Shown: positions 8,638-34,779 of the stretch, in pieces
Numbering within the stretch: position 1 is the first letter of the stretch
Layout: the number at the start of each line of letters is the position of its first letter
NCBI GenBank assembly: GCA_025358885.1
Contig: JANYHW010000126.1
Coordinates: forward strand, 1 to 35,383
Reading direction: 5' to 3'
Length of the DNA stretch: 35,383 nucleotides
From: Cytophagales bacterium
Lineage (GTDB): Bacteria > Bacteroidota > Bacteroidia > Cytophagales > Cyclobacteriaceae
Notes under the pieces: model-generated
Database searches by the model: none
What the model saw: the letters and a program-made list of their open reading frames with translations, nothing else
Told to the model about the DNA's origin: nothing
Position numbers and translations under genes: made by a program

Positions 8638-8693
8638 GGCATTAGGTCTCGGGGCCTGCCGGAACCAATGCCATATTCCTAATGCCCGATGCC
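8638..8693. repeat. 7-nt-period word array in a convergent gap
   Basis: Eight consecutive 7-mers tile this gap. The last four include caatgcc, taatgcc and cgatgcc, while the first (ggcatta) is the reverse complement of taatgcc. The outer words form a perfect 9-bp inverted repeat, 8638-8646 with 8678-8686. It lies between the convergent coiled-coil and MATE genes, where it could act as a bidirectional terminator-like hairpin. Confidence 0.55.
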
Positions 8694-8698
8694 TGGAG

Positions 8699-10105
8699 CT
8701 AGATTTTCACGGTCTTCCATGTTCCTCTTCGAAATATTAGTATTGCTACAACCGCGATGACAGACTCCGCGATGGCAATTGCCCAGAAAGAACCAGAGGC
8801 GCCCATCTCCAATTTTATTGCCAGCATATAGGCGAGCGGAATTTGAAAGAGCCAATAACCAAATAAGTTGATCACAGTCGGCGTGCGCGAATCCCCTGCC
8901 CCATTGAAAGCCTGCACGATGACCATGCCATATCCAAAAAAGACGTAACCGAACGCCACGATGCGCAGGCATTGTGTTCCATAACGAATCACCTCCGGAT
9001 CTGAAGAAAAGAACTGCATGATCGGCTCGGACACAAAGTAGAACACGATCGAAATCAATCCCAGGAAGATCATGTTCAGGAAACCTGCAGTCCATACTGA
9101 CTTCTCCGCACGTTCTGGTTGCCTGGCGCCAAGGTTTTGACCCACGAGTGTCGCGGCCGCATTGGCCATGCCCCATGAAGGCAATATCGTGAAGATGATC
9201 ACGCGAATGGCAATCTGGTAACCGGCAAAGGCCGCAGTGCCAAAATTCACAATGATTCGCGCCAGGAAGAGCCAGCTTGCCGTCGATATCAGAAATTGTC
9301 CAACGTTTCCGGAGGATACTTTGATAAGGCGCACAATGATATCCCAATCGATAATAATATTTTCTTTGTGAATCCTGATGATACCTTTTTCACCGGAGAG
9401 GAAATATAATTGATAAAGTACTCCTGCTGTGCGTCCAATGTTGGTGGCAATGGCAGCACCTTCAACTCCAATGGGTTGAATGGGTCCCCATCCAAAAATC
9501 AGGATTGGATCAAGTATCATGTTAAGGATGTTAGCAATCCAGAGCGACCGCATGGCGATGGCCGCATTGCCGGCACCGCGAAAAATTGCATTGATCAGGA
9601 AGAGTGATACGATAGTAAAATTTCCTCCCAACATCCACAGCGTATATCCGGAGCCGACGGCGATCACCCCTTCCGATGCCCCCATGAGTCCCAGGATATC
9701 CTTGTAGAATAGAATTCCGACGAGACTAATAAGCACCGAAAGCACGAGGCCAATGTAGAGGGCATTCACCGCTGCCACCGCCGCACCCGGTGCGTCTTTC
9801 TCACCAATTCTCCTGGCAACCATAGCAGTGGCTGCCATGCCAAGACCCATGGCCATGGAATAGACTATGGCTATGATGGATTCTGTAAGGCCTACAGCGG
9901 TTACAGCATTGTTATCACTCAGCCGGCTAATAAAGAAAATATCGACAACCGCGAGCAGTGATTCCATGGCCATCTCGAGGATCATGGGAATGGAAAGGAG
10001 AAAGATGGCACGGTTGATGCTGCCCTCAGTGAAATTTTGTTCTTCGCCATTGATGGCTTGTTTGAACAAAGTAAATACAGAAATTTTTTTTGTGGAATCG
10101 TTCAT
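8699..10105 (-). CDS. MATE family efflux transporter
   Basis: This is a 468-residue inner-membrane transporter of the multidrug and toxic compound extrusion family, using a Na+ or H+ gradient to export cationic or drug-like compounds. About twelve hydrophobic segments are visible in two halves, starting after a 27-residue cytoplasmic N-terminus. Family signs are I-P-M-I-L-E-M-A-M-E-S-L near residue 35, repeated at the start of the second half as V-S-S-G-N-V-G-Q-F, plus N-D-P-type and G-A-G-D-S-R-T-P motifs near 375. Length matches the family (450-480). It stands alone: the gap upstream is 478 bases long and structured, and the gene downstream is convergent. Substrate cannot be told. Confidence 0.93.
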   Translation of the reverse strand: MNDSTKKISVFTLFKQAINGEEQNFTEGSINRAIFLLSIPMILEMAMESLLAVVDIFFISRLSDNNAVTAVGLTESIIAIVYSMAMGLGMAATAMVARRIGEKDAPGAAVAAVNALYIGLVLSVLISLVGILFYKDILGLMGASEGVIAVGSGYTLWMLGGNFTIVSLFLINAIFRGAGNAAIAMRSLWIANILNMILDPILIFGWGPIQPIGVEGAAIATNIGRTAGVLYQLYFLSGEKGIIRIHKENIIIDWDIIVRLIKVSSGNVGQFLISTASWLFLARIIVNFGTAAFAGYQIAIRVIIFTILPSWGMANAAATLVGQNLGARQPERAEKSVWTAGFLNMIFLGLISIVFYFVSEPIMQFFSSDPEVIRYGTQCLRIVAFGYVFFGYGMVIVQAFNGAGDSRTPTVINLFGYWLFQIPLAYMLAIKLEMGASGSFWAIAIAESVIAVVAILIFRRGTWKTVKI

Positions 10106-10432
10106 GACTCGCCTGTGATAAATTGTAGAAGATGATTCGGCTCCCCCTGATCTGGGGAGAAGGTTGGAATTTGACGCAAGGTCAAATTAGCTGGGCGTGT
10201 TCATAGGCGAATGGTCCTGATTGAATCAGGACATACGGTAAAGATGAACAAAAGTTTGAACATCAGAAAAGGTCTAAGAAGTAATTCCGATGAAGTTGGA
10301 CCGGCTGCGCTTGAGAACCCTGCACGAAACGGTACACTCATGATATTATGGGTAGCCTGACGTTGGGACTCTTCACTTCATGGGCCTGAAAGAATTCGAA
10401 TTGATTCTTTTGACAAACTAGGGAAAAACAAA

Positions 10433-10454
10433 GAGGAGCCAAACCGAGCTCCTC
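10433..10454 (-). terminator. Terminator downstream of the first GloVer gene
   Basis: A 7-bp stem (10433-10439 with 10448-10454) around an 8-nt loop is followed on the minus strand by a T-rich run. It lies about 130 bases after the giant gene's stop. The plus strand also has a short T run after it, so it may work both ways. Confidence 0.6.
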
Positions 10455-10463
10455 CTGTTCTTT

Positions 10464-10491
10464 TAAAGACTAAACCTATAACCTGTAACTG
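10464..10491. repeat. 7-nt-period word array 3' of the first GloVer gene
   Basis: Four consecutive 7-mers read taaagac, taaacct, ataacct and gtaactg on the plus strand. They are similar but not identical and keep the exact 7-nt register seen in the other arrays of this window. Confidence 0.4.
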
Positions 10492-10533
10492 ACTTATTCG
10501 CAGGGCAAAGTACAGGGAAAGAAACTAGTGGGG

Positions 10534-10553
10534 AATACTCCTTTTGTGGTATT
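10534..10553 (-). promoter_or_regulatory. Shared ATACCAC motif, copy 1
   Basis: On the minus strand ATACCACAAAAGG matches 12 of 13 bases of a second copy at 15756-15779. An inverted repeat of 5 bp (10534-10538 with 10549-10553) encloses it. It lies about 30 bases 3' of the first GloVer gene. Role unknown. Confidence 0.35.
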
Positions 10554-10583
10554 TCTTTGTTATCCGAGCCGGGGTCTGGGCCG

Positions 10584-13500
10584 CTATTCTTTTACAAACT
10601 GATACGAATAGGCTTTTTGATTCTGGAATACTTTAACCACGTAGTTACCCCGGGCATAGTGTCTGACATCAAGTATAAGTTCCGCTCCTCCCAGGCTGGT
10701 CCTTTTTTCCATTGACTTTCCATTCAAATCATAAACTATGATTTCAACCAGGGAACCTTTTTCCAAATTCTTCAATCCAACAACGATTTCATCCTTGGCT
10801 GGGTTCGGGTAGAGAGATATGCTTTCAACTGCAGGATAGATTGACAGGTCACCGGTTATTGTCTGAACGGTAAAGGTAATTGGGTTGGTTGCCGTCTGAC
10901 CGTTAATGGTGACTGTGATCAGACCGGTTGTGGCTCCCGGTGGAACTGCTGTAATGATACCTGTTGCAGTACTTGCACTTAGGGTTGCTGCAACTCCATT
11001 GAATTTCACCACATTATTGGCAGGCGTTGGATCAAACCCAGTACCTGTAATATTAACCACTGTCCCCACCGATCCCAGAATGGGTGTGAACCCCGTGATA
11101 GAAATTACAGTAAAGCTAGTCAGGCTTGTCCCGATCTGTCCATTAACGTTAACCTTGATGGGGCCGGTGGTTGACGAAGGAGGAACCTTGGTTACAATGG
11201 TAGTTGGTGTAATACTGAGGATTGTCGCAAAAATTCCGTTAAGTGTTATGATGGTATTGACTGGGTCAAAATTTGTCCCGGTAATTGTAACGGTTGTTCC
11301 CACCGCACCAATAATCGGATTGAAACTTGCTATCATCGGCGCGGGTGTGAAATTTGTCGCACTAACGCCGGCCAATCCATTGGTAGTTATGGTAATTGGC
11401 CCCGTAGAAGCGAAAGGCGGGACAGTGGTTATTATCCTGGTTGATGTAGAGGAGGTGGCGGCAGAGACTGTTCCGTTAAATGATACCACATTGTTGGACA
11501 CAATTGGATCAAAGCTGGTACCATCGATTGTCACTACCGTGCCTGCAATTCCAAAAACCGGGTTGAAACCTGTCAGCGTAGGTCCAGGTATGAAATTAGC
11601 AGGGCTTAAGACAGTTCGTCCATTGACGGTTACTGAGATTGGACCTATAGTAGCAAGTGGTGGTACCGTAACCGTCAGGCTTGACACGGTAGAAGCCGTT
11701 ACGACTGCTTCTGTTCCATTGAATTTTACACTGTTATATCCCGGGATGGGATCAAAGTTAGTGCCAGTTAGAGTAATCGTTGATCCCACGGCACCCTTGC
11801 TTGGATTAATACTCAGCAAGGTGGGTGGAAATGAAATGAGGTTTCTGAATACCGATACCGTGCCTCCACCAAGATTACTTGTAACGATATCTAGTTTTTG
11901 ATCATTATCCACATCGGCAAGCGTGACGCTTGAAGGTATGTTAAGGTGGTCAGGGCTGCTGTTGCTAAAATCAACTTTTGGCGCAAATGAGTTGGTGTTA
12001 ATGGATCCAACCACTGTTGTATTTCTAAAAACAGATATGGTATTGCTGCCATTATTTGTCACAACAATCTCAGGCTTTCCATCCCCGTTGAGGTCACCAA
12101 TGACAACACCGGTCGAATTTCCTCCGGTAGCAAAGTCCACTTTCGGAGCAAATGAACTGGTTGTCAAAACGCCGGGAGTACTGATATTTCTAAAGATTGA
12201 AATTGTTTGATCGTTTGAATTCACCAGGACCAGCTCAGGTTTGTTATCCCCATCAAGATCACCAATGACCGGCCTGGTTGCCCCTTGTCCGGACGTAAAA
12301 TCAAGCTGAGAATCAAATGAAGTGGCTGATAGCCCACCAGCGATACTGATGTTGCGAAAAACAGAAAAGAGCATATTGGGTGTGTAGCGGGCTACCACCA
12401 AGTCAGGTTTATTATCCCCATCGAGATCCCCAATGGCTATTTTTCCACCATCAAAATTTGTTGATATGGATACCGCTGGCGCCAGCGTACCTGAAGATAT
12501 GATTCCAAGTGTGCAAGTATTCTTAAAAAGAGAAAGGGTATTACCAAAATCTGAGGTCACAATATCAAACCGTCCATCTGAGTCAAGGTCGCCAATGGCA
12601 ATACCTTCAGGATTCGTTCCGGTAGTAAACTCAACATATGAAGCAATTGAATTTGATGTGAATGTGCCTGGGGAAGCATTGTTCTTGAAGACTGAAATCT
12701 TATTGTTGACCACAATAGCGCTCACCAAGTCTGGTTTGGCATCACCATCAAGATCAGCGATGGCAAAATCATTTGGTCCGGAACTTGTAGAAAACCCTAC
12801 GGCCGGATTGAAAGAACTACCGGATAAAGGTACGGGTGTCGTTGCATTTCGCAATATTGATACGTTGTTCCGGAAGAAACTGGATGTGGCTAGATCGGAT
12901 CTTCCATCTCCATCCATGTCCGAAACCACTATTGTTCCTGAGAGAGGCTCCGTGAGCAATTCAACTATTGGTGCAAATGAATTCGCAGCAATTATTCCAT
13001 CGCTGAGAAATGTGGTGACAAATGGGCTACTTGAAGAGCAATTGAGTCCGGTAACGTTTACCGAAATTGGTTGGTAGTTCGCACCCGGAGGCACACGCAC
13101 CGTTAGTTGACTCTGCGATGCAGTCAGCACCGTCCCTTTGACGGCACCAAAGAAGACAATGTTATTTGATGGCAATGGATCAAAAAAGTTTCCATTAATG
13201 GTGACAATAGTGCCAATTGGGCCGCTGGCCGGAGTAAATCCTGAAATGGACGGTGCCGGTTGGGAAACCATCAGCGTTTGTTCCTGATAGTCACTTGCAT
13301 AATTTGCATTACCAGGTTGGCTCACACGAAGCACAGTGATTCCATGACTTACCAGAGTTACCTGATTGCCCGCGACGGTTGCCACCGAAGGGTTACTGCT
13401 CGTAAACGTAATTGGCAGTCCGGAACTTGCTGATGCGCTTATGGTAAACGTCGGATCGCCAAACGTCTTATTCGGCAAAGGGAGGAAAGTAACGCTTTGA

Positions 13501-15080
13501 TTTTGTTTTTGAATGGCTAACAACCCTCCAAATGATGATGCCCCGGTTCCGGCAAATGGATAGTTGGAAGACTGGAGATATGATGATCCATCCTTGGCCA
13601 AGCTTAATTCGAATCCGTTAGTGGAGGAATATAACTTACCATCCGGCAATTCGATCAGGTCTCCTGTAGGTCCGAATTCAAAGGAATTAGCCGAATAAAT
13701 AGTGGCAAATGCTGAACCATCTAAATTAAGGCTGAAGATAGTTCCGGCGTTGCCACTTCCTCCTCGATACCAGGTTGCACCATACAATTTGCCATCCGAC
13801 GACTGCATCAGGCCATTCTGAGACAGGTCATTCCCAATGTGCTTGTCGTCAAAGTCATATAGTTTCTCGAACCCTGAACCATCCTTATCCATCCTGAAAA
13901 TCGTCCCAAAGCCGTTGGCACCCTGGCCGTTCGTTACTCCATAGATCAAACCGTCGGAGGCCTCGATGATGCTACAGGGCTTTGTCCCTGTGGTTGCGCC
14001 GCTTGGATGAAAATCATACACAACCGTGAAGCTCGTTCCATTCGTATTCATTTTGAATACAGATCCATCAAATGGGTCACCGTCATTGCCGGAAGTCAAA
14101 CCATAAAAGAACCCATCAGATCCCAAAAGCAAGCCTCCGATAGGAGGATACGAGAGGCTTTTCACAATGGCGAATCCTGTGCCATCCAGTTTTATCTTAT
14201 ACACTATGCCGTTTTGTAATGAAGAGTAATAATACGGCCTCCGTGCAACTCCATAGAGAAATCCATCGGGCATTTCAAGCAAGTGGCCAGTAAGAATATA
14301 CCGGCCACTGATGCCGTCAAAGTCGTAAAGTTTGGTGTAGCCAGTGCCATCCTTTTTGATCTTATAAAATATCCCGAAGCCATTGGTCCCACCACTGACT
14401 GCCGTTCCATACAGGTCGCCATCCGATCCCAGGATTGGCTTGGCATCAGGGTCGGCCCCTTCCTGAGGAAAATCTTTTAGTTTCGTCGCAACGCCACCGG
14501 GGGTTATAGAGTAAATGCCTCCATTGCCGCTGGCATCACCATGTGGCTGGGTGAAGATAAAATTTCCGCTGACAGTTTCTATAAGGCTTGCGGGGTTGAA
14601 ATCACTAGTAGGCATCAGCAAACCACTACCCGTGTATAAAGTAGTAAGTCCCGTCCCGTTGGTTGCGACTCGGGAGACGCTTCCTGTTCCACCTCCACTT
14701 GTGGCGGCAAAATACAGATTTCCATCTGAACCCAACAAGAGGTTCCCGCCCGTAGTGCCCAAGATGGTATAACCGGTTCCATCAGGTCTTACTTTAAATA
14801 GGCTTCCATTTGACGGAGAGTAACCAAATAAGTCGCCATTGGCCATTTGAACTAAGTTACTGCCCCCAATTCCGAAATTGGCGAACTGTTTAATCTTGGT
14901 GTAGTTGGTTCCATCTTTGTGAATGCTGAACACGCCTCCTGGGCCTGCACTTCCCGAAATCCCATATAATGCTCCGTCAATCCCTTCTATGAGATTTCCC
15001 TCAGGATCAGCATCGGTTATACCATCAAAGTCCCATACTACCTGAAATCCGGTTCCGTCGGTATTGATCTTGAATATCAA
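10584..15080 (-). CDS. Giant T9SS surface protein, C-terminal fragment after an in-frame stop (GloVer, TIG, FG-GAP)
   Basis: The fragment of 1,498 codons continues, in the same frame, the signal-peptide fragment at 15084-15674; only the TGA at 15084-15086 and one codon separate them. Its own first codon is a TTG inside a repeat, so it is not a natural start. In order it holds about ten more GloVer tandem repeats (I-F-K-I-x-x-D-G-T-G-F type), a bacterial Ig-like domain, one IPT/TIG domain, seven FG-GAP/VCBS repeats (D-x-D-G-D-x-x-x-D calcium-loop type), four more IPT/TIG domains, and a T9SS type A sorting domain (S-L-Y-P-N-P-A-K-D near the start of the last 80 residues). The whole protein would be exported and anchored at the surface. 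A 1-codon repair gives 1,696 residues. Confidence 0.9.
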   Translation of the reverse strand: MIFKINTDGTGFQVVWDFDGITDADPEGNLIEGIDGALYGISGSAGPGGVFSIHKDGTNYTKIKQFANFGIGGSNLVQMANGDLFGYSPSNGSLFKVRPDGTGYTILGTTGGNLLLGSDGNLYFAATSGGGTGSVSRVATNGTGLTTLYTGSGLLMPTSDFNPASLIETVSGNFIFTQPHGDASGNGGIYSITPGGVATKLKDFPQEGADPDAKPILGSDGDLYGTAVSGGTNGFGIFYKIKKDGTGYTKLYDFDGISGRYILTGHLLEMPDGFLYGVARRPYYYSSLQNGIVYKIKLDGTGFAIVKSLSYPPIGGLLLGSDGFFYGLTSGNDGDPFDGSVFKMNTNGTSFTVVYDFHPSGATTGTKPCSIIEASDGLIYGVTNGQGANGFGTIFRMDKDGSGFEKLYDFDDKHIGNDLSQNGLMQSSDGKLYGATWYRGGSGNAGTIFSLNLDGSAFATIYSANSFEFGPTGDLIELPDGKLYSSTNGFELSLAKDGSSYLQSSNYPFAGTGASSFGGLLAIQKQNQSVTFLPLPNKTFGDPTFTISASASSGLPITFTSSNPSVATVAGNQVTLVSHGITVLRVSQPGNANYASDYQEQTLMVSQPAPSISGFTPASGPIGTIVTINGNFFDPLPSNNIVFFGAVKGTVLTASQSQLTVRVPPGANYQPISVNVTGLNCSSSSPFVTTFLSDGIIAANSFAPIVELLTEPLSGTIVVSDMDGDGRSDLATSSFFRNNVSILRNATTPVPLSGSSFNPAVGFSTSSGPNDFAIADLDGDAKPDLVSAIVVNNKISVFKNNASPGTFTSNSIASYVEFTTGTNPEGIAIGDLDSDGRFDIVTSDFGNTLSLFKNTCTLGIISSGTLAPAVSISTNFDGGKIAIGDLDGDNKPDLVVARYTPNMLFSVFRNISIAGGLSATSFDSQLDFTSGQGATRPVIGDLDGDNKPELVLVNSNDQTISIFRNISTPGVLTTSSFAPKVDFATGGNSTGVVIGDLNGDGKPEIVVTNNGSNTISVFRNTTVVGSINTNSFAPKVDFSNSSPDHLNIPSSVTLADVDNDQKLDIVTSNLGGGTVSVFRNLISFPPTLLSINPSKGAVGSTITLTGTNFDPIPGYNSVKFNGTEAVVTASTVSSLTVTVPPLATIGPISVTVNGRTVLSPANFIPGPTLTGFNPVFGIAGTVVTIDGTSFDPIVSNNVVSFNGTVSAATSSTSTRIITTVPPFASTGPITITTNGLAGVSATNFTPAPMIASFNPIIGAVGTTVTITGTNFDPVNTIITLNGIFATILSITPTTIVTKVPPSSTTGPIKVNVNGQIGTSLTSFTVISITGFTPILGSVGTVVNITGTGFDPTPANNVVKFNGVAATLSASTATGIITAVPPGATTGLITVTINGQTATNPITFTVQTITGDLSIYPAVESISLYPNPAKDEIVVGLKNLEKGSLVEIIVYDLNGKSMEKRTSLGGAELILDVRHYARGNYVVKVFQNQKAYSYQFVKE

Positions 15081-15083
15081 CCC

Positions 15084-15086
15084 TCA
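15084..15086 (-). other. In-frame TGA interrupting the first GloVer gene
   Basis: The codons on both sides encode one continuous GloVer repeat (G-G-V-N-L, stop, G-L-I-F-K-I), so a single base substitution or base-call error explains the break. Other genes here, such as nqrC and the tiny lipoprotein, end in TGA, so the codon is a true stop in this organism. Confidence 0.85.
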
Positions 15087-19864: not shown

Positions 19865-19926
19865 ACTCTTTCAATTTAGAATTATGAATTAATAATTACG
19901 ACTCGATCAGGATGAGGTTAAAACGA

Positions 19927-21708: not shown

Positions 21709-22425
21709 TTACCGGACGTTTGCGGAAAGTTGCTTTAATAGCGCTGTAAAGTCCTTAGGATAAGGAGCTTGCACCACTATCTGACGTCCATCCAATCCGG
21801 TGAATTCCAGTGAAAAAGCATGGAGGGCCATCCTTTTCATAAGGGACTGCTCCTCTGTATTCCTTTTGATCCTAAATCCGCGTTTAATGGACGAGACAAG
21901 AAAGGGTTTTCCGCCATATATCTCGTCGCCTGTGATGGGGGCGCCGACCGATGCCAGATGCACCCGAATTTGGTGCATCCTGCCTGTGACAGGCCTGCAT
22001 TCAATCAACGAGTGTTGGGTGAAAATCCGCAGGGTGGAAAAGGAGGTCTGTGCATCTTTTCCTTTTGGACTTATCCTTGCCGTACCGTCATTTTGCTTGA
22101 GGATTGCTTTATCTATGACCAGGTCGTGAAGGTCGTGCCTTCCATCGGCGACAGCATGATATACTTTGTTTACCTCGCGGTGCTCGAACTGCAGGCTGAG
22201 GTGGCGGTAAGCCTCCGGATGCCGTGCAATGGCAAGAACACCTGAAGTATCCTTGTCCAGCCGATGGCACACCTGGGGGTCGGGCTCAACGGCGCGGGCA
22301 AGGGCAAGGATATTGAGTGGCTCGACCCTGTCTTCCAATGTGGCAATGAAAGGTGGCTTATTGATGACAAGGTAGTCGTCGTTTTCAAAAAGTACGAGTT
22401 CTTTGAATGCAATGGAAGTTTTCAA
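21709..22425 (-). CDS. RluA-family RNA pseudouridine synthase
   Basis: The 238-residue protein isomerises uridine to pseudouridine in rRNA or tRNA. It has the RluA-type catalytic motif H-R-L-D-K-D-T-S-G at 54-62, with Asp57 the catalytic residue, the entry motif V-I-N-K-P-P near 20-25, and the late G-R-M-H-Q-I-R-V-H-L-A motif. There is no S4 domain, as in short RluA-like members. The start is TTG at 22425: an in-frame stop lies seven codons upstream and no ATG is available before the conserved region. Target uridine is not predictable. It lies just upstream of the ribosomal operon promoter and follows the sensor kinase gene across a 7-nt-period array. Confidence 0.93.
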   Translation of the reverse strand: MKTSIAFKELVLFENDDYLVINKPPFIATLEDRVEPLNILALARAVEPDPQVCHRLDKDTSGVLAIARHPEAYRHLSLQFEHREVNKVYHAVADGRHDLHDLVIDKAILKQNDGTARISPKGKDAQTSFSTLRIFTQHSLIECRPVTGRMHQIRVHLASVGAPITGDEIYGGKPFLVSSIKRGFRIKRNTEEQSLMKRMALHAFSLEFTGLDGRQIVVQAPYPKDFTALLKQLSANVR

Positions 22426-22435
22426 TCGGGATACA

Positions 22436-22484
22436 GGTGCTGGCTACAGGCTGCAAGTTACCCCTAACGGGTAACATGCAACGG
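22436..22484. repeat. 7-nt-period word array between the kinase and pseudouridine synthase genes
   Basis: Seven 7-mers in strict register fill this 66-base gap, including gctacag, gctgcaa and gttaccc and then ctaacgg, gtaacat and gcaacgg. Positions 22457-22463 and 22469-22475 form a perfect 7-bp hairpin with a 5-nt loop. Confidence 0.5.
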
Positions 22485-22491: not shown

Positions 22492-23538
22492 TCAATCTTT
22501 TTCATCATCACCCTTCATCCTTGGCAGCTTAAAACTGAAGGATGAACCCTTGCCTACTGTACTCTCGACTTCGGCCCGTGAACCATGCCCTTCCAGGATA
22601 TGCTTGACGATGGCCAGCCCCAGGCCGGTACCTCCTTTTTCACGACTGCGACTCTTATCGACGCGATAGAAACGTTCAAAAATCCTGGAGAGATGCTGCT
22701 CTGGAATTCCTTCTCCGGTGTCCCTGACTGTTGTGGTGATGTTCTTCTTGGACACTTCGAAGTTGATCATGACGTCTCCTACCGGCGTATAGCTAATCGC
22801 ATTCGACACCAGGTTGGTCATGACCTGCGTAATCCGCTGCCAATCTGCATACACAAAGAGCTTGGGCGAGGGATCACTCAATTTAAGTTTGATATTTTTC
22901 TTTTGGGCTTTCTCCTCAAATTGCTCGATAACCTCCGCGCAAAGTTTATGCAGGTCCAGGGATTCGAATTTCATTTTAATATCCCCCGTTTCAATTTGCG
23001 AGAGCGTAAGCAGGTCTTGAACCAGGACATCCAGGCCGTCGAGGCTCTTGGCTGCCTTTTTTAAGAACCGGTTACGAACATGTTTATCGTTCACGGCTCC
23101 ATCAAGGAGGGTATGGACAAATCCCTGGGCGGCGAAGATGGGTGTCTTCAATTCGTGGGATACATCTGCAATAAACTCTTTGCGGAAAGCTTCGAGTTTC
23201 TTCAATTCGTCAATTTCCTTTTGCTTGAGCAGGACAAAGGAGAAAATCTCTTCATTTATGTTCTTCAGGGGATTGAGGGCACCTGATTTCTCGCGCCTGA
23301 TATTACCAAGCTCTTTCTTCCTCAGTTTCTCAAGCATTTTATAGATCTTATTTATCTCACGAAAAACGAGGAATTCCAACACCACATAGATGAGCAGGTA
23401 AGATCCTGAAAAACTGATGACCCCGGCAACAATGAGTCCATCGGATTTTACGGATTGTACCAGGGATAAAAAAAGCACCGTCACCAGGGCGATGAACACC
23501 GCCAGGAGCAGGGCCATCGTCCGGGCGCTGTAGACCAT
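22492..23538 (-). CDS. Sensor histidine kinase (PhoR-like)
   Basis: The 348-residue inner-membrane kinase should autophosphorylate and pass phosphate to the response regulator encoded directly upstream. Two transmembrane segments lie at about 8-28 and 36-57 with only a very short external loop, so it probably does not sense a periplasmic ligand directly. A cytoplasmic linker leads to the dimerisation domain with His128 in S-H-E-L-K-T-P, then the ATPase domain with N box (N-L-V-S-N-A-I-S-Y), D-T-G-E-G-I-P, F-E-R-F-Y-R-V-D and G-G-T-G-L-G-L motifs. Its start is 3 bases after the regulator's stop. The pairing resembles PhoB-PhoR, but the stimulus is unknown. Confidence 0.94.
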   Translation of the reverse strand: MVYSARTMALLLAVFIALVTVLFLSLVQSVKSDGLIVAGVISFSGSYLLIYVVLEFLVFREINKIYKMLEKLRKKELGNIRREKSGALNPLKNINEEIFSFVLLKQKEIDELKKLEAFRKEFIADVSHELKTPIFAAQGFVHTLLDGAVNDKHVRNRFLKKAAKSLDGLDVLVQDLLTLSQIETGDIKMKFESLDLHKLCAEVIEQFEEKAQKKNIKLKLSDPSPKLFVYADWQRITQVMTNLVSNAISYTPVGDVMINFEVSKKNITTTVRDTGEGIPEQHLSRIFERFYRVDKSRSREKGGTGLGLAIVKHILEGHGSRAEVESTVGKGSSFSFKLPRMKGDDEKD

Positions 23539-26497: not shown

Positions 26498-26525
26498 GTT
26501 GCCCGTTAATCGTTAGTGCTAAGCA
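26498..26525. repeat. 7-nt-period word array between the barrel gene and recA
   Basis: The consecutive 7-mers gttgccc, gttaatc and gttagtg (26498-26518), followed by ctaagca, keep a strict 7-nt register. The array lies in the divergent gap upstream of recA. Confidence 0.35.
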
Positions 26526-27696: not shown

Positions 27697-27746
27697 GGGT
27701 GCTCATGGTTGTTGAATAGCAACCAGCCATGGCAACGATACAAAGT

Positions 27747-27777: not shown

Positions 27778-27800
27778 AGTTTGTTATGGAGTAATGATGA

Positions 27801-29066: not shown

Positions 29067-29138
29067 AAGACAAATCTAACGCGAAAGATGCGATTTCGGT
29101 TGTAAAAAATTGCCAGGCAGCTCGAATAGTTGACGGCC

Positions 29139-30407
29139 TTACCCCGTAGACCGGATGGCAATAACAGGATCAAGCCTGGCTGCAACAGCCGCCGGAACAA
29201 TCCCGGCAATAAGGCCTATTACGGAAGATACCCCCAAACCAAGAACAATATTCTTGAAGCTCAGGGCGACCTCAAGACTTCCGAACGGCAAGAACGTTAA
29301 AAGGAACACCAGGAAAATCCCTGCAAGTCCGCCAATCAAACTCAGGAATACAGCTTCAAACAAAAATTGAAAAAGGATGAAATAGTTTTTCGCCCCCAAC
29401 GATTTCTGTAAGCCAATAATGCTGGTTCGCTCCTTGACCGAAACAAACATGATGTTAGCAATGCCAAAGCCGCCAACCAAAATGGAGAATCCGCCGATGA
29501 TCCAGCCGGCCACGCCCACCACGTCAAAAAGCCCGCTGATCGCGTTGACGATGGCTTCGGGACGATTGAATGAGAAAGTATCCTTCATGGTAGGCCGCAA
29601 ACCCCTGCGCACCCTCAATAATCCCGTAATCTCATTTTCCAATTCAACAAGACCCAGATCAAATTCGCTGCCCTTCACTCCGATGGTCGACTCCAGCTCG
29701 TCCCAATGACCTGTTCCAGTTTGATAAAGCTTCCTGAATGAATTGTAAGGTATGATAACAGTATAGTCCACGCTCCCCATACCCAGAAAACTCTGTCCTT
29801 CCCTCTTGGTCACCCCGATCACTTTGTATTTCAAATCTTTGATCTTCACCATTTCACCGATGGGATTGCGATCGTTCGGAAACAGCGCCATGGCTACCTC
29901 ATAGCCCAGCACGGCGACTGGTCGGCCTCCATCGATTTCAGCGTTCGTCAAGTAGCGTCCATTGTTAATATTTACCTCGCGAATGTTTTCGTATCCCTCA
30001 TGAACGCCCCTTAGGCCGACCTGACCGATGCTGTTGTTGCCACACTTGATAATGGTATTTCCCTTAATAGAATAGATAGCCATAGCAGACTTATTCTTCA
30101 CGGTGGCATTCAGGAACTTGTACTCATTCATTGAGACGGTCGGTCTACGCCAATATTCCCACCACTTGTAAGGACCATTTCCTTCGGGTGCCCAGGGCCA
30201 CTTCTGGATATAGATCACTCCGGTTCCCAAAAAGTCAAAACTAGACTTGATGTTTTTTTCCAGCGAGTCAACAATTGTAAAGACGGCAATAATGGCAAAG
30301 ATTCCGATGGTTACCCCGAGAAGGGAAAGAATAGTCCGCAGGACATTTGATTTCAGCGCTTTCCATGCAAAAGAAAAGCTTTCGGCAATCAATCGTAGTA
30401 CTAGCAT
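29139..30407 (-). CDS. MacB/FtsX-type ABC transporter permease (copy 1 of a tandem pair)
   Basis: The 422-residue protein has the same layout as the gene at 27801-29066: one helix near the N-terminus, a MacB-like periplasmic domain and three C-terminal FtsX helices. Differences between copies are concentrated in the periplasmic part (for example Q-K-W-P-W-A against G-K-W-P-F-T), and a lone Cys occurs in the K-C-G-N-N-S stretch here. Many codons differ silently even where the residues agree, so the duplication is old and the membrane parts are kept by selection. The gene starts upstream of the queA promoter region, divergently. No ATPase gene is adjacent. Confidence 0.9.
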   Translation of the reverse strand: MLVLRLIAESFSFAWKALKSNVLRTILSLLGVTIGIFAIIAVFTIVDSLEKNIKSSFDFLGTGVIYIQKWPWAPEGNGPYKWWEYWRRPTVSMNEYKFLNATVKNKSAMAIYSIKGNTIIKCGNNSIGQVGLRGVHEGYENIREVNINNGRYLTNAEIDGGRPVAVLGYEVAMALFPNDRNPIGEMVKIKDLKYKVIGVTKREGQSFLGMGSVDYTVIIPYNSFRKLYQTGTGHWDELESTIGVKGSEFDLGLVELENEITGLLRVRRGLRPTMKDTFSFNRPEAIVNAISGLFDVVGVAGWIIGGFSILVGGFGIANIMFVSVKERTSIIGLQKSLGAKNYFILFQFLFEAVFLSLIGGLAGIFLVFLLTFLPFGSLEVALSFKNIVLGLGVSSVIGLIAGIVPAAVAARLDPVIAIRSTG

Positions 30408-30732
30408 AAGGCAGGTAAACGTGAAACGGGCTTCCCCGGTTTTGGAAATCGCCTTAAATCGTCTGCATCTGAATCAGGAAGATGGGTTTCGCCCGGGATG
30501 CAACTGGTCATCCCGGGAGCCTATCTGCCATAGGTTGCATTTCAAACCAGTTTTCCTATTTTTGCACCCTCATTAAAACAGGCCCTGCCGACAGAGGGGC
30601 CAAAGCCCGTAAGCTTATGAAATGTCCCCTTAGCCCCTTCGCCTTTCCTTGCTCTTCCGCGTCGGCTAACTCATTCCTTTGTTTCGGCGCCGCTCAATTC
30701 AAAGACATTCCTTCTACATAAATCTATACGAA
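30408..30732 (+). other. 325-base divergent gap and long queA leader
   Basis: A GC-rich 9-bp inverted repeat (30492-30500 with 30509-30517, 8-nt loop) lies upstream of the queA promoter and has no T run, so it may be an operator. After the promoter, a leader of about 160 nt contains a short hairpin (30581-30585 with 30597-30601), a distant 6-bp pairing (30587-30592 with 30661-30666) and a 34-codon reading frame at 30617-30721. The leader does not match a preQ1 riboswitch that I can recognise. Confidence 0.4.
30535..30564 (+). promoter_or_regulatory. Promoter of queA
   Basis: TTG (30535-30537) and TATTTTTG (30557-30564) are separated by 19 nt, fully matching the Bacteroidota pattern. Transcription would start near 30571. 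Confidence 0.7.
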
Positions 30733-31779
30733 ATGAAATTATCTGGTTTCAAGTTTGACCTTCCCAATAACCTGATTGCCCTGCACCCGGCCGAAAATCG
30801 CGACGAATCGCGCATGATGGTAGTGCACCGCGATACCGGTAAAATCGAGCATAAAGTCTTTAAGGATATTGTCAGTTATTTTGATTCAGGAGATGTATTT
30901 GTAGGAAATGATACCATGGTTTTTCCTGCAAGGCTTTACGGCCGCAAGGAAAAGACCGGTGCCAAAATTGAAGTCTTTCTACTTCGGGAGCTAAACAAAG
31001 AAATGCACCTTTGGGATGTGCTGGTTGACCCTGCCCGTAAAATCCGTGTAGGCAACAAATTGTACTTTGGGGACGGGGATCTCGTGGCCGAAGTAATCGA
31101 CAATACTACCTCACGAGGTCGTACCATTCGGTTTTTGTTCGATGGCGACTCGGAGGCCTTTGACAAGATTGTAGAGACGTTGGGTGAAACTCCCCTGCCG
31201 AAGTACATCAAGAGAAAAATTGAACCCTCTGATAAAGAGCGGTTCCAAACAATTTATGCTTCGAAGAAAGGCGCTGTCTCTGCCCCTACCGCGGGGTTGC
31301 ACTTCACGAAGCAGCTGATGAAGCGCATGCAACTTAAAGGTATTGACATGACCTATGTCACGTTGCATATTGGCCTGGGTACTTTCCGCGCAGTAGACGT
31401 GGAGGACCTCACCAAACATAAAATGGATTCTGAGAATTTTATTGTAGGCCCCGAAGCGGTAAGAATTGTTAACAACGCGCTGGATAACAAAAGCAAGATT
31501 TGCGCTATCGGCACAACCGCCATGCGTTCTTTGGAAACTGCTGTCTCAGCCAGCAACCGCCTGAAAGAGCGCGAGGGATGGACAGACAAGTTTATCTTCC
31601 CGCCTTATGACTTCAAGATTTGCAGCGCCCTCGTAACAAACTTTCACCAACCTGAGTCCACACTCCTGATGATGGCATGTGCTTTTGGGGGATATGAGCT
31701 TACCATGCAAGCCTACCAGGTAGCGAAGAAGGAGAAATATAAATTCCTGACCTACGGAGATGCTATGTTGATCGTGTAG
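30733..31779 (+). CDS. queA: tRNA preQ1(34) S-adenosylmethionine ribosyltransferase-isomerase
   Basis: QueA transfers and isomerises the ribosyl part of S-adenosylmethionine onto preQ1 in tRNA position 34, giving epoxyqueuosine. The 348-residue protein has the family motifs F-D-L-P-x-N-L-I-A near the start, G-D-V-F-V-G-N-D-T-x-V-F-P-A-R-L near 50-65, S-A-P-T-A-G-L-H-F in the middle and [10 protein letters not shown] near the C-terminus. The ATG at 30733 matches other QueA starts (M-K-L-S-x-F); an upstream ATG at 30679 adds 18 unrelated residues. Length is normal. It precedes ispD on the same strand. Confidence 0.96.
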
Positions 31780-31870
31780 ATGGTCTTTGTTCGGGGCCAC
31801 TACACTTTCCCCGCCGGCAGCAGTTCACCGCAGAAAGTATTTAACAATCTGCGTTGTCTGCTCGAAATGT

Positions 31871-31878
31871 TATTTTTG
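31871..31878 (+). promoter_or_regulatory. -7 promoter box upstream of ispD
   Basis: TATTTTTG matches the -7 consensus 51 nt before the ispD start. The nearest TTG is at a short 14-nt spacing, so this is half supported. ispD may also be read through from queA. Confidence 0.4.
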
Positions 31879-31929
31879 ATCAGTAATTGTTTCGAACATC
31901 CGACTAATTATATCCATTAACCAACTCCC

Positions 31930-32607
31930 TTGAATCTCCCTGAATACGCAATCATAGTTGCTGGAGGCAAAGGCACACGCATCAAAAGTGATTTGCCCAA
32001 ACAGTTTCTTGAATTGAATGGCACCCCTGTCTTGATTCATACCACTAATGCCTTCTTCCGTTATTCAAAAGACCTCACTATCATCCTGGTGATTCCGGAA
32101 GATGACTTCCCGACCTGGAATCAGATTGTGGAACGCCATCATTTCACGAAGCATATAATCTTGCAAAAAGGCGGGGAGACGAGGTTTCAATCCGTTCGCA
32201 ATGGACTTGACAAAATTGAGGGCGATGGTCTTGTTGCCATTCACGACGGTGTTCGTCCATTGATTAGTGCAGACATCATAGGTGCCTCCTTCAGGCTTGC
32301 TGCCGTCCATCAGACTGCCGTGGCTGCCGTTCGATTAAAAGAATCCATCCGAATGACCGACAAAGACACTACGCGTGCTGTTGATCGATCCCGCTTCCGA
32401 TTAATTCAAACTCCACAGACATTTGATGTGGCATTAATTAAGCGTGCGTACCAGATAAAAGAGGACCCAAGCCTCACCGACGATGCGAGTGTGGTCGAAA
32501 AAGCCGGATACAATATCTCGTTGTTCGAAGGAAGCTATGAGAACATCAAAATCACCACGGCAGAAGACTTCATTATTGCGGAAGCATTGTTAAAAAAGAA
32601 AAGCTAA
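31930..32607 (+). CDS. ispD: 2-C-methyl-D-erythritol 4-phosphate cytidylyltransferase
   Basis: IspD couples MEP to CTP to give CDP-methylerythritol, the third step of the MEP isoprenoid pathway. The 225-residue protein has the nucleotide-binding A-G-G-K-G-T-R-I at 11-18, followed by L-P-K-Q-F-L, I-H-D-G-V-R-P-L in the middle, Q-T-P-Q-T-F and T-D-D-A-S-V-V-E, all typical. The start is TTG at 31930, the only start-like codon before the motif. Other MEP genes are not in this window. Confidence 0.96.
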   Translation: MNLPEYAIIVAGGKGTRIKSDLPKQFLELNGTPVLIHTTNAFFRYSKDLTIILVIPEDDFPTWNQIVERHHFTKHIILQKGGETRFQSVRNGLDKIEGDGLVAIHDGVRPLISADIIGASFRLAAVHQTAVAAVRLKESIRMTDKDTTRAVDRSRFRLIQTPQTFDVALIKRAYQIKEDPSLTDDASVVEKAGYNISLFEGSYENIKITTAEDFIIAEALLKKKS

Positions 32608-32645
32608 CCCTTCGGTCAGCTTTGTGTGAATCTCATGAACCATGC

Positions 32646-32867
32646 TCAGTATTCGTCTTCATTAAAGAAAAAATCTTCCTTGGTTGGATAGTCGGGCCAA
32701 ATCTCTTCGATACTTTCATATGGCTGTCCGTCGTCTTCGAGTTCCTGAAGGTTCTCCACGACTTCCAGGGGGGCACCTGAACGAATAGAAAAGTCGATTA
32801 ATTCATCTTTGGTGGCGGGCCATGGCGCGTCCTCCAGATATGATGCCAATTCCAATGTCCAGTACAT
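32646..32867 (-). CDS. DUF2795-type small acidic protein
   Basis: The 73-residue protein is very acidic, with a conserved W-T-L-E-L-A-S-Y-L-E-D-A-P-W-P-A-T-K-D-E-L start and an end motif W-P-D-Y-P-T-K-E-D-F-F-F-N-E-D-E-Y. It is one of the best conserved small proteins of Bacteroidota and fits the DUF2795 family; its role is unknown. A complete promoter lies just upstream (32888-32917). It is convergent with ispD and divergent from ettA. Confidence 0.9.
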   Translation of the reverse strand: MYWTLELASYLEDAPWPATKDELIDFSIRSGAPLEVVENLQELEDDGQPYESIEEIWPDYPTKEDFFFNEDEY

Positions 32868-32887
32868 AGTCCGCGTTAAAATTTCCG

Positions 32888-32917
32888 CAAAAATAGAATT
32901 AAATACTCCATAGTCAA
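32888..32917 (-). promoter_or_regulatory. Promoter of the DUF2795 gene
   Basis: TATTTTTG (32888-32895) and TTG (32915-32917) are 19 nt apart on the minus strand. The -33 element falls inside the 7-nt word array that begins at 32907. Confidence 0.6.
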
Positions 32918-32997
32918 TAGTCAGGCCTCAATAGTTTCAAAACCCAAAAAGTGCCCTCTTTTTGGCTGCCAGGCATCAAGCAACTATGGACTATTGG
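32907..32997. repeat. 7-nt-period word array with an inverted half
   Basis: Four 7-mers, tccatag, tcaatag, tcaggcc and tcaatag (32907-32934), are followed about 50 bases later by ctatgga and ctattgg (32984-32997), the reverse complements of the same words. Between them is an 8-bp hairpin (32944-32951 with 32958-32965). The array lies between the divergent DUF2795 and ettA genes and overlaps the DUF2795 promoter. Confidence 0.6.
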
Positions 32998-33036
32998 CCA
33001 AAAAAGCCATATTTGCCACCTCTAACCAAAGATTTC

Positions 33037-34719
33037 ATGGCTGACGAAAAAATCATCTTTTCGATGACGGGTGTTAACAAAATCTACCCGCCTAACAAAC
33101 AAGTACTTAAGAACATATACCTCTCCTTTTTCTATGGTGCGAAGATTGGAGTCCTGGGTCTAAACGGTTCAGGAAAATCCTCTCTCTTACGAATCATCGC
33201 AGGCATCGACAAAGAATTCCAGGGCGAAGTCGTGTCGGATCAGACCTTTCGTGTGGGGCTATTGGAACAGGAGCCGTCGTTGGATAAAACAAAAACCGTC
33301 AAGGAGATAGTAGAAGAAGGTGTGAAAGAAATTTCCGACCTGCTCAAAGAATTTGAAGCCGTCAACGAAAAATTCGGAGATCCCGAAATCCTGGAGAATC
33401 CGGATAAGATGGAAAAGCTTATTGAGAAACAAGGGGCGTTGCAGGAAAAACTTGACGCGGTAGGTGCATGGGAACTTGACCATAAACTGGAGCGTGCGAT
33501 GGATGCCCTCCGCTGTCCACCCCCCGATGCAAAGGTGGAACACTTGTCGGGCGGAGAAAAAAGAAGAATTGCGTTGTGCCGCCTCTTGTTGCAGGAGCCT
33601 GATGTGTTGCTGTTGGATGAACCTACAAACCACCTCGATGCGGAGTCTGTGCAGTGGCTCGAGGAGCATCTCAGACAATACAAGGGAACCATCATCGCGG
33701 TGACCCACGACCGTTATTTCCTGGACAATGTTGCCGGCTGGATCCTTGAACTTGACCGCGGGGAAGGAATTCCATGGAAAGGAAATTACTCTTCGTGGCT
33801 CGACCAAAAGCAGAAGCGATTGAAGATGGAAGAGAAAACTGAATCGAAACGGCAGAAGGCACTGGAACGTGAGTTGGAGTGGGTGCGAATGAATCCAAAA
33901 GGCAGACATGCGAAGGGCAAGGCCCGTTTGGGTGCGTATGAAAAACTCATCGGACAGGAAGGTCGCGAGAAAGAAGAAAAGCTAGAAATGTATATACCTC
34001 CGGGACCACGCCTGGGCAACAAAGTGATCGAAGCTGCTGGCGTGTCGAAAGGATACAGTGACAAACTACTCTACGAGAATCTAACATTCTCATTACCGCC
34101 CGCAGGTATCGTTGGAATTATTGGCCCGAATGGTGCGGGTAAAACTACATTGTTCAAGATGATTACAGGGTCGGAGAAACCCGACGCTGGAACATTCTCA
34201 GTGGGTGAAACAGTGAAGATCGCGTACGTCGATCAGGAACACGACGATCTGAAACCGGAAGACACGGTGTTTCAGGCTATCACTGGCGGAAATGATCTTA
34301 TCCTCATCGGAGGGAAAGAAATTAACTCACGTGCCTATGTGAGCAAATTCAATTTCAGCGGAACTGACCAGCAGAAAAAAGTTAAGGAACTCTCCGGAGG
34401 TATGCGTAACCGCGCCCACCTTGCCATCGCGCTCAAGCAAGGTGGAAACCTTCTGCTTCTCGATGAACCTACCAACGACCTCGACATCAACACCCTTCGC
34501 GCGTTGGAAGAGGCACTGGAAAACTTCGGTGGTTGTGCCGTCATCATCTCTCACGACAGGTGGTTCCTTGACCGGGTCTGCACACACATCCTCGCCTTTG
34601 AAGGAGATTCTCAAGTGTTCTGGTATGAAGGCAGTTTCAGTGAATATGAAGAAAACAAGAAGAAGAGGTTGGGGGATGATCAGCCGCACAGGATCAAGTA
34701 TAAGAAACTGGTAAAATAA
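33037..34719 (+). CDS. ettA: Energy-dependent translational throttle protein EttA (ABC-F)
   Basis: EttA is a ribosome-bound ABC-F ATPase that gates the first elongation step according to energy state. The 560-residue protein has two ABC domains in one chain. The first has Walker A G-L-N-G-S-G-K-S-S at 41-49 and signature L-S-G-G-E-K-R-R with L-L-L-D-E-P-T-N-H-L-D; the second has G-P-N-G-A-G-K-T-T and L-S-G-G-M-R-N-R with L-L-L-D-E-P-T-N-D-L-D. A charged linker joins them. There are no membrane segments, as expected. The ATG at 33037 matches the family start M-A-D-E-K-I-I-F-S-M; the TTG at 32962 would add 25 residues from the repeat array and is rejected. Confidence 0.96.
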   Translation: MADEKIIFSMTGVNKIYPPNKQVLKNIYLSFFYGAKIGVLGLNGSGKSSLLRIIAGIDKEFQGEVVSDQTFRVGLLEQEPSLDKTKTVKEIVEEGVKEISDLLKEFEAVNEKFGDPEILENPDKMEKLIEKQGALQEKLDAVGAWELDHKLERAMDALRCPPPDAKVEHLSGGEKRRIALCRLLLQEPDVLLLDEPTNHLDAESVQWLEEHLRQYKGTIIAVTHDRYFLDNVAGWILELDRGEGIPWKGNYSSWLDQKQKRLKMEEKTESKRQKALERELEWVRMNPKGRHAKGKARLGAYEKLIGQEGREKEEKLEMYIPPGPRLGNKVIEAAGVSKGYSDKLLYENLTFSLPPAGIVGIIGPNGAGKTTLFKMITGSEKPDAGTFSVGETVKIAYVDQEHDDLKPEDTVFQAITGGNDLILIGGKEINSRAYVSKFNFSGTDQQKKVKELSGGMRNRAHLAIALKQGGNLLLLDEPTNDLDINTLRALEEALENFGGCAVIISHDRWFLDRVCTHILAFEGDSQVFWYEGSFSEYEENKKKRLGDDQPHRIKYKKLVK

Positions 34720-34779
34720 TTCGTGTTCGTTGTTCGTTCCTGGTTACTCGTAACGGACAGCCAACAACGATCAACGACT
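34718..34779. repeat. 7-nt-period word array with an inverted half, upstream of the DUF486 gene
   Basis: From the ettA stop, 7-mers run in register: aattcgt, gttcgtt, gttcgtt, cctggtt and actcgta (34718-34752). The remainder up to the next ATG reads, on the other strand, as similar words such as cgttgat and cgttgtt. The whole 60-base gap is made of this array. Confidence 0.55.

Follow-up and report, generated by a model that had tools for sequence, protein, structure and literature searches.

The gaps between genes of a Chryseolinea-like genus carry a real period of seven nucleotides, and in some of these gaps it takes the form of hairpins whose arms are built from related 7-nt words. In two of the three array gaps compared between relatives, the sequences show that hairpin and period tend to stay while the words change. 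The host of the window, i.e., of the whole stretch of 35,383 nucleotides analysed here, is a Chryseolinea-like member of the Cyclobacteriaceae (Bacteroidota).

Period seven in the gaps of the genus and of the window

In the pooled sample of six genomes of the genus (1140 gaps, 177 kb), strong self-matches at lags 7, 14 and 21 number 86, 66 and 40, against 9.0, 6.2 and 5.2 in shuffled sequence, and lags 8 and 16 rise only weakly above background. The gaps were set by a simple hexamer gene caller, with edges that are approximate and slightly variable between runs. The excess over shuffled gaps, which the preliminary description of this DNA had named as a check, is thus present in the genus; it is weaker in the own-genome sample (the window and portions of 40 contigs, 484 of 3841 kb in all) than in genomes G008 and G009, with observed and shuffled counts of 9 and 1.3 at lag 7, 7 and 1.5 at lag 14, and 6 and 0.3 at lag 12. 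Chance, or a selective reading of AT-rich gaps, is refuted as an account of the whole class by the pooled counts, which exceed those of dinucleotide shuffles and of the other lags, and by the E. coli control gaps, which are flat and show no period-7 excess. As a general explanation it is therefore very improbable, and it holds for the individual sites at 7583, 8299, 26498 and perhaps 10464. In the wider Bacteroidota (loci L055-L131), where the shuffle comparison covered most of the loci, the lag-7 identity in hairpin arms is only 0.33 and 0.32 in two sets, and a lag-7 segment scoring at least 10 occurs in 13/34 and 13/43 loci.

Within the window, lag-7 identity in the gaps is 0.289, against 0.24-0.28 at the other lags from 3 to 23. 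Three lag-7 segments reach a score of at least 10 (0.0 in shuffles), namely 34724-34777, one in a probable promoter region near 32903, and 19873-19898, the last being absent from the preliminary list; the best hairpin of its gap falls outside the segment (p = 0.032). At each site, the best lag-7 segment in the whole gap, and then the best hairpin, was compared with 500 dinucleotide shuffles. All nine previously listed stretches, two of them listed as weaker hints, were read in 7-nt blocks; since they had originally been chosen by eye, p-values near 0.03 carry little weight. Tiling and inverted halves are both borne out at 34718-34779 (lag-7 score 15, p = 0.002; hairpin score 11, p = 0.008) and 8638-8693 (lag 7 p = 0.008; hairpin p = 0.024), and the inverted halves also at 22436-22484, where the tiling is moderate (lag 7 p = 0.036; hairpin p = 0.002). 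The hairpins of these three arrays are comparatively weak. The site at 977-990 reduces to one exact duplicate (hairpin p = 0.128 in the shuffle test), and 10464-10491 is marginal and lacks a hairpin by the same test (p = 0.936). Lag 7 is at chance in 26498-26525 (p = 0.096, the top segment lying elsewhere in the same gap), 7583-7617 (p = 0.675) and 8299-8326 (p = 0.623). No Rfam family reaches its gathering score within the window.

The remaining stretch, 32907-32997, also departs from shuffles (lag 7 p = 0.004, hairpin p = 0.030), but it is ruled out as a heptad array by the conservation of its letters across 41 distinct orthologous upstream regions: CGCAAAAATA is exact in 34/41, CATAGTCAA in 20/41 (27/41 allowing one mismatch) and ATATTTG in 38/41. 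Since it keeps its letters in relatives, it is no drifting array, and the letters are constant because the region is regulatory. The promoter boxes of Bacteroidota are TTG at -33 and TAnnTTTG at -7. When this consensus is applied by eye, TTGAC-like and TATTTG-like blocks point each way in 32902-32995, which probably comprises two facing promoters. The start of the neighbouring ABC-F gene was placed at 33037, where the ATG is confirmed in the sequence, since the alignments of many homologues begin at residue 20-28 of the longer reading frame.

Table 1. Intergenic features and adjacent genes in the window
Feature	Coordinates	Strand	Details
Heptad array, whole gap from ABC-F stop codon to DMT_6 start	34720..34779	+	hairpin arms 34727-34743 and 34761-34777
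Heptad array, convergent gap between small ORF and MATE gene	8638..8693	.	hairpin arms 8638-8646 and 8678-8686
Weak heptad array, histidine kinase / pseudouridine synthase gap	22436..22484	-	hairpin arms 22452-22463 and 22469-22480
7-mer GAATGTC in two exact copies and three further matching bases, close to a stop codon (TAA)	977..993	.	lag 7 p = 0.006
Heptad segment AATTTAG AATTATG AATTAAT AATTA	19873..19898	.	lag-7 score 11, p = 0.002
Marginal lag-7 segment in a 478-nt gap	10473..10489	.	p = 0.028
Conserved divergent regulatory region, ABC-F / divergent small gene	32902..32995	.	alignment of 18 chosen loci; motif counts in 41 distinct regions
ABC-F ATPase gene	33037..34719	+	Pfam PF00005, PF12848; ATG at 33037, longer ORF from 32962
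DMT_6 (DUF486) gene	34780..35148	+	Pfam PF04342
MATE family transporter gene	8699..10105	-	Pfam PF01554
Histidine kinase gene	22492..23538	-	Pfam PF00512, PF02518
Pseudouridine synthase gene	21709..22425	-	Pfam PF00849

Hairpin arms, word families and orthologous gaps

A heptad hairpin is found in 45 of the 1140 gaps, with one 7-nt word family on the first arm and its reverse complements on the second. Across the arms of 148 hairpins from the six genomes, identity is 0.417 at lag 7 and 0.455 at lag 14, against 0.23-0.29 at the other lags from 3 to 15. The period is plain in the arms of five relatives (0.37-0.53), and the 15 hairpins of score at least 12 in the own-genome sample have arms without it (0.214). 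Arm pairing in 28 hairpins amounts to 0.82 in the best register, which was for that reason taken as register 0, to 0.68-0.74 at shifts of 7, 14 and 21, and to 0.16-0.32 elsewhere; as the words are alike, every 7-nt register allows the arms to pair.

Each array had been credited with a vocabulary of its own. There is indeed no dominant word, and a restricted vocabulary was rejected, as exact tandem 7-mers form 35 classes among 41 loci; word families nevertheless recur, the words of 377 array pairs differing by at most one letter, against 165 ± 13 when letters are shuffled, a count that orthologous arrays inflate. Inside single genomes, like words are clearly in excess in G062 and G048, and weakly or not at all in the other four. 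Shared families, replaced words and the unrelated words that orthologous gaps can hold would all be explained if the arrays were dispersed elements, copied between loci by gene conversion or as a mobile hairpin. This explanation is nonetheless quite improbable, given the weak or absent excess in four of the six genomes and the behaviour of the 8638-8693 array, the only one searched in this way, which together with its flanks (8600-8760) matches only itself in its own genome.

Orthologous gaps were compared in one genome per species, counting hairpins of score at least 12 as strong and lag 7 as kept at a score of at least 7. Among the 26 distinct short ABC-F/DMT_6 gaps, the window's own included, a strong hairpin is present in 17 (0.1 expected) and the period in 16 (0.56 expected), and the words differ between relatives. 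Hairpins are far commoner here than in tandem gaps of 40-130 nt (43/384), a sign that selection or a hot spot may be at work. Lag 8 reaches a score of 7 in 6/26 of these gaps, so that the exact seven of the preliminary description is a rule and not a law. The MATE gap resembles this one in behaviour, more weakly: of 30 orthologous downstream regions, again with the own one, 13 have a strong hairpin, 10 the period and 6 both. The kinase gap at 22436 is not kept in relatives (strong hairpin in 0/24, lag 7 in 2/24). The proposed check on orthologous gaps thus gives a divided answer for the four sites compared, favourable at 34718 and 8638 and unfavourable at 22436 and at 32907, where the letters are fixed.

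At one locus, L223 has perfect arms and in L206 the 3' arm alone has decayed, an alignment that reads as if the hairpin had been made at once and then left; the alignment of L221 with L204 is read as showing two paired changes. For L230/L232 and L203/L205, the ABC-F sequences are 0.93 identical and the gaps unrelated; sudden replacement of the whole gap is not claimed, because the DMT side is only 0.78-0.85 identical and leaves room for slow change. The syntenic comparison of G009 with G062 and with G048 covers only 8 adjacent gaps each, and 48 gaps of G062 and G048, at a median identity of 0.66, are too divergent for 7-nt steps to show.

Origin of the arrays

Our tentative reading, to which we give slightly less than an even chance, is that these are STRR-like heptad hairpins that grow, and have their words replaced, in steps of 7 nt through slippage and fold-back copying. 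Replication would slip by units of 7 inside the hairpin, adding or dropping words, and one arm would be templated from the other, so that words would spread and be replaced inside the array. The polymerase would set the length of 7, a proposal already made by others for heptanucleotide repeats, and any benefit, e.g., a stable 3' end on the mRNA, would come second. Mrazek 2007, as cited in PMC4679880 and PMC4692102, found heptanucleotide repeats to be the commonest class and is linked there to the idea of a 7-nt polymerase contact.

The unit length fits the slippage-like growth suggested earlier, but two tests speak against slippage in its simple form with point mutation. Simple stepwise slippage predicts identity falling with unit distance; such a trend was rejected, since it disappears once arrays with an internal hairpin are removed, and in the 20 arrays without one, identity is flat (0.778, 0.748, 0.757 and 0.750 with rising distance). 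Departures from the majority letter comprise 66 transitions and 119 transversions, against 225 and 228 in 28 alignable orthologous gap pairs (Fisher p = 0.0016), and this richness in transversions makes the words look unlike point-mutated copies. An improbable alternative is that the arrays are made as they stand: at some gene ends, a writer would set the 7-nt register, fill both arms with a few fixed letters and near-random ones between them, and rewrite them repeatedly; it could be an error-prone polymerase acting on a fold-back end with a step of 7, sometimes 8.

Departures unlike mutation would also suit a 7-nt comb, in which a protein or RNA that binds the repeat would recognise anchor letters spaced 7 nt apart and nothing but these anchors would be conserved. 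Averaged over 22 arrays, the two best-kept of the seven columns reach 0.93 and 0.89 and the rest fall to 0.47, the sorting of columns inflating the top values, and in B. subtilis heptamers are bound by CspB at one protein per heptamer (cited in PMC4679880). The letters, however, vary from array to array, and the lag of 8 in ABC-F gaps does not agree with a fixed comb, which is a quite improbable reading; the earlier suggestion that 7-nt steps are read by a protein or RNA finds no direct support.

Selected RNA hairpins are a more serious contender, although still unlikely. As 3'-end structures they would shield mRNA from 3' exonucleases, terminate transcription or keep neighbouring genes apart, the letters being free if the arms pair and the likeness of words a by-product; the same roles were proposed by the cyanobacterial authors (PMC2670836). 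The retention of hairpins at two gene pairs across the genus favours this explanation, as does their placement: heptad hairpins occur in 29/761 tandem, 11/153 convergent and 5/226 divergent gaps, and 14/33 tandem-gap arrays from three genomes begin at most 10 nt after the upstream stop codon (a raw count without control). The avoidance of divergent gaps is, however, not significant (40/914 vs 5/226, p = 0.18; for the period alone 62/914 vs 11/226, p = 0.36), and the likelihood assigned to RNA selection was lowered slightly because of this result. Stop trinucleotides favour the first arm (20 hairpins vs 5, with 4 ties, p = 0.004; found after looking and a lead only), which may represent a sense-strand bias that a pure DNA process would not give. 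The bias of G over C between arms is not significant (16 vs 8, p = 0.15).

Against RNA selection, no T-run lies behind 30 tandem heptad hairpins (2.17 T in 8 nt), which do not have the form of intrinsic terminators, and one array precedes what reads as a proper terminator (gap 89 of G062/G048). The 29 tandem heptad hairpins contain 14 G-U and 22 A-C pairs; with no wobble excess they give no sign of selection on an RNA stem, although G-U outnumbers A-C in convergent heptad hairpins (9 vs 6) and in other tandem hairpins (30 vs 22). Furthermore, relatives L205 and L238 have no hairpin in the same ABC-F/DMT_6 gap, and selection for pairing alone leaves period 7 unexplained. Two further ideas about stop codons were rejected: in an all-frame comb, stop trinucleotides occur in 75/105 consensus words against 72.5 shuffled, both strands counted, and, for nucleation of the array on the gene's own stop codon, they peak at offset 4 (42) and not 0 (31) modulo 7, convergent gaps being entered from both sides.

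Relation to known heptad repeats

Compared by published descriptions, the arrays resemble the STRR hairpins of filamentous cyanobacteria, usually 7-bp repeats, e.g., between hupS and hupL, in their 7-nt unit, hairpin, intergenic position and presence in the same gap of several species (PMC2670836). The arrays consist of tandem 7-nt units, lie between genes and can fold as hairpins, all as in the cyanobacterial type. They differ in phylum, in having several word families and in words that differ inside an array, and word change at a fixed gap is documented here across a genus. Near-identical units, taken in the preliminary description as the mark of the cyanobacterial repeats, are not found, neighbouring words being 0.73 identical in 38 arrays of at least 28 nt. 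That contrast was drawn too sharply, as degenerate heptanucleotide hairpins are on record in cyanobacteria (PMC3488679, PMC2670836): the P6b stem of the Nostoc tRNA-Leu intron likewise consists of degenerate 7-nt repeats pairing into a hairpin of varying length (PMC3488679), in intron RNA, whereas the present arrays sit behind protein genes.

GGGAATC-type heptamers of Xanthomonas and Nostoc are also intergenic and partly heterogeneous, and they recur at the same gene pairs while their length and sequence vary, but they are of a G-rich quadruplex type with one word family per group (PMC4692102). The TAACTGA direct repeats of Beggiatoaceae, cyanobacteria and five Bacteroidetes are, as here, intergenic heptamers, and some of them share their gap with other heptamer repeats; unlike the present arrays, they use one fixed word, run direct (one indirect) and in Beggiatoaceae lie mostly just before start codons (PMC4679880). 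None of the 73 listed consensus heptads matches the rotation class of that unit, AACTGAT. REP/BIME elements are short intergenic palindromes in many copies, as the arrays are, and differ in their conserved sequence and lack of a heptad register.

By analogy, the arrays may be a variant, in Bacteroidota, of the known but unexplained hairpins of cyanobacteria, whose function is described as still not known in PMC2670836. A gap between two conserved genes keeps its hairpin and 7-nt step in most relatives examined while its letters change, a warning that sequence alignment can miss such elements. Their origin, whether by slippage, fold-back copying or RNA selection, becomes testable in a second phylum.

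Period 7 in the intergenic gaps of the genus

The window is a complete contig (C163) of its own genome, G000, which comprises 246 contigs. Its proteins (Por secretion tail) indicate a Bacteroidota host, and a comparison of ABC-F proteins places it nearest, among named relatives, to Cyclobacteriaceae MAGs and Chryseolinea serpens. Gaps were defined from gene calls made with a simple hexamer model, and each was scored for self-match at every lag (match +1, mismatch -1). In the pooled genus sample (six genomes, 1140 gaps, 177,143 bases), segments matching themselves at a shift of 7 nt number 86, vs 9.0 in shuffled gaps; lag 14 gives 66 vs 6.2 and lag 21 gives 40 vs 5.2. The remaining lags between 3 and 23 yield 7-20 vs 4-14, with lags 8 and 16 the highest at 20. 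The excess of period 7 over shuffled gaps is thus present, and the exact 7-nt period of the preliminary description holds as the main step but not as the sole one. In the E. coli K-12 control (185 kb, 103 gaps), 4 segments are found at lag 7, the same as at lags 6 and 9. The heptad class in the gaps of the genus is therefore real, with 7 as its main step and other steps also occurring.

Within the window (23 gaps), three lag-7 segments score 10 or more, vs 0.0 in shuffles, one of them being part of the putative promoter region at 32907-32997. At a score of at least 9, the wider G000 sample contains 9 lag-7 segments vs 1.3 in shuffles, a weaker signal than in the relatives G009 (17 vs 0.8) and G008 (19 vs 2.7).

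Sites of the window

Nine sites had been listed as 7-nt arrays or weaker hints of them, and each gap was compared with 500 shuffles of itself (see table). Several of them fall outside the heptad class; the hairpin scores of the window's arrays are 9 to 11.

Listed sites and other features of the window
Position	Feature	Result
977-990	listed array	single exact duplicate
7583-7617	listed array	no better than chance
8299-8326	listed array	no better than chance
8638-8693	listed array, behind MATE	period and hairpin both stand
10464-10491	listed array	marginal
10584-15080	large protein, TIG and FG-GAP repeats	Por secretion (sorting) tail at C-terminus
19873-19898	unlisted heptad segment (AATTTAG AATTATG AATTAAT AATTA)	p=0.002
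22436-22484	listed array, behind histidine kinase	hairpin stands; period weak
26498-26525	listed array	no better than chance
32868-33036	divergent regulatory region upstream of ABC-F	letters kept in many relatives; facing TTGAC-like and TATTTG-like blocks
32907-32997	listed array, divergent gap	passes period test; different element, letters conserved in relatives
34718-34779	listed array, ABC-F/DMT_6 gap	period and hairpin both stand

Of the 41 distinct ABC-F upstream regions compared in relatives, 34 contain an exact CGCAAAAATA and 20 an exact CATAGTCAA (27 allowing one mismatch); ATATTTG is found in 38. When 18 of these regions, picked mainly for related words, are aligned, the conserved blocks occur in order. 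Read against the promoter consensus, 32907-32997 is probably a pair of facing promoters. With its letters kept, this gap upstream of ABC-F makes a good internal contrast to the ABC-F/DMT_6 gap.

Orthologous gaps in relatives

The neighbour is in place in 48 of 58 loci, whose ABC-F/DMT_6 gap was read. There are 33 distinct gaps: 26 of 25-200 nt (the window's included), three shorter and four longer. Among the 26, a hairpin scoring at least 12 is present in 17 (0.1 expected), a lag-7 segment of at least 7 in 16 (0.56 expected), and both together, with the hairpin at 10 or more, in 15. Lag-8 segments occur in 6, and lags 5, 6, 9 and 10 give 0-1 each. For ordinary tandem gaps of the genus (40-130 nt), the baseline is 43/384 for hairpins of at least 12 and 51/384 for lag 7. 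Compared with shuffles of its own gap, the hairpin reaches significance (p<0.05) in 21 of the 26, the exceptions being L193, L205, L211, L215 and L238; L205 and L238 contain no real hairpin. The words vary among genomes: GTTCGTT in the window, ATTGACA in G009, G048 and G062, AAGACAT in G002 and G059, GGCAGTA in G061 and GTTTCTG in G033. The C. serpens gap (L053) uses CGCAGAG/CGCAAAG. An 8-nt period is seen in L227, L208, L230, L234, L053 and L205, all except L205 with a strong hairpin. L213 and L214 are 98.6% identical in ABC-F, and their gaps measure 1270 vs 20 nt; since their DMT flanks are mismatched in place, the neighbour or start may be wrong in one.

Behind MATE, 13 of 30 loci (own included) carry a hairpin of at least 12 (0.06 expected), 10 a lag-7 segment (0.72 expected) and 6 both. 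Period 7 is missing from the hairpins of L291, L293, L298, L308, L309 and L310, some or all of which may simply be terminators. Behind the histidine kinase, hairpins are found in 0/24 loci and lag-7 segments in 2/24. The orthologous-gap test of the preliminary description, a change of words with retained register, thus succeeds at the ABC-F/DMT_6 and MATE gaps and fails at the histidine kinase gap. Behind the histidine kinase homologue of G022, from another family of the order, nine perfect AATTACG units stand in a run (L036).

Other repeats were seen in relatives. Very long heptad arrays occur in a Flavobacteriaceae MAG (L128) and Parapedobacter composti (L065), with lag-7 scores of 54 and 42; along the former the register is constant and the words seemingly shift stepwise. 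Long imperfect palindromes followed by AAACGTT recur in neighbouring gaps of L152 (near 1592 and 2208) and L178 (near 764 and 1811), and appear similar to integron attC sites. Palindromes based on AAACCTTGCAGGT at two separate G009 loci (L154 and L157) are possibly a dispersed palindrome without heptads.

Hairpin arms and origin of the arrays

Hairpins scoring at least 12 number 148 in the six genomes. Their arms match themselves with an identity of 0.417 (lag 7) and 0.455 (lag 14), vs 0.23-0.29 for all remaining lags between 3 and 15. Lag-7 identity reaches 0.436 in G008, 0.368 in G009, 0.527 in G062, 0.532 in G048 and 0.422 in G061, vs 0.214 in G000, where the sample holds just 15 such hairpins; the window's own genome consequently shows the class less than its relatives do. 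In 28 long heptad hairpins (7-nt-periodic arms), pairing is 0.82 in the best register, 0.68-0.74 at slides of 7, 14 and 21, and 0.16-0.32 otherwise. This retained pairing indicates that a single word family, oppositely oriented, supplies both arms, which could slide along each other.

Of the tandem gaps, 29/761 contain a heptad hairpin; the figures are 11/153 for convergent and 5/226 for divergent gaps, and the lower frequency in the last is not significant (p=0.18). In three genomes, 14 of 33 tandem-gap arrays start no more than 10 nt from the stop codon of the preceding gene (a count without control). The arrays lack a T-tract, and the one in gap 89 of G062/G048 precedes an apparent ordinary terminator.

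The 7-nt unit, the sliding arms and the word turnover fit slippage inside the hairpin combined with fold-back copying. From gap sequences read by eye, the first arm is near-identical letter by letter in L223, L204 and L206, the second arm pairs perfectly in L223 but has decayed in L206, and the outer stem differs by two paired changes between L221 and L204. Simple slippage plus mutation is disfavoured, because word identity in hairpin-free arrays is flat with distance and word differences are rich in transversions (66 transitions to 119 transversions, vs 225 to 228 in ordinary gaps; p=0.0016). Mismatches in the 29 tandem hairpins (14 G-U, 22 A-C) do not point to selection for RNA pairing, at low power; the 11 convergent hairpins have 9 G-U to 6 A-C. 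Stop trinucleotides are biased toward the first arm (60 vs 31 in the 29 hairpins; 20 hairpins vs 5), which argues for a sense-strand role. Owing to this bias and to the evidence against simple slippage, slippage with fold-back copying is held tentatively, at slightly under even confidence.

Heptanucleotide repeats are described as the commonest category in most bacterial genomes, with 7 nt suggested to reflect polymerase contact (Mrazek 2007, cited in PMC4679880 and PMC4692102). TAACTGA repeats are reported from as far as five Bacteroidetes, in places adjoined by other heptamer repeats (PMC4679880). Filamentous cyanobacteria carry intergenic hairpins of usually 7-bp repeats, e.g., at hupS/hupL, described as of unknown function, with proposed roles in transcript stability, coupling and termination (PMC2670836). 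Nostoc repeats with a 7-nt step, such as ttgtcagttgtcagttgtca, are rated as lacking a hairpin (PMC2408588), and degenerate heptads base-pair in its tRNA-Leu intron (PMC3488679). Degenerate heptad hairpins in Bacteroidota did not come up among the listed papers on intergenic heptameric repeats in Bacteroidetes, weak evidence of absence as subscription titles lay mostly outside the search. The arrays are thus genuine in this genus and belong to a known kind, and at two orthologous gaps the words turn over while the register is kept.
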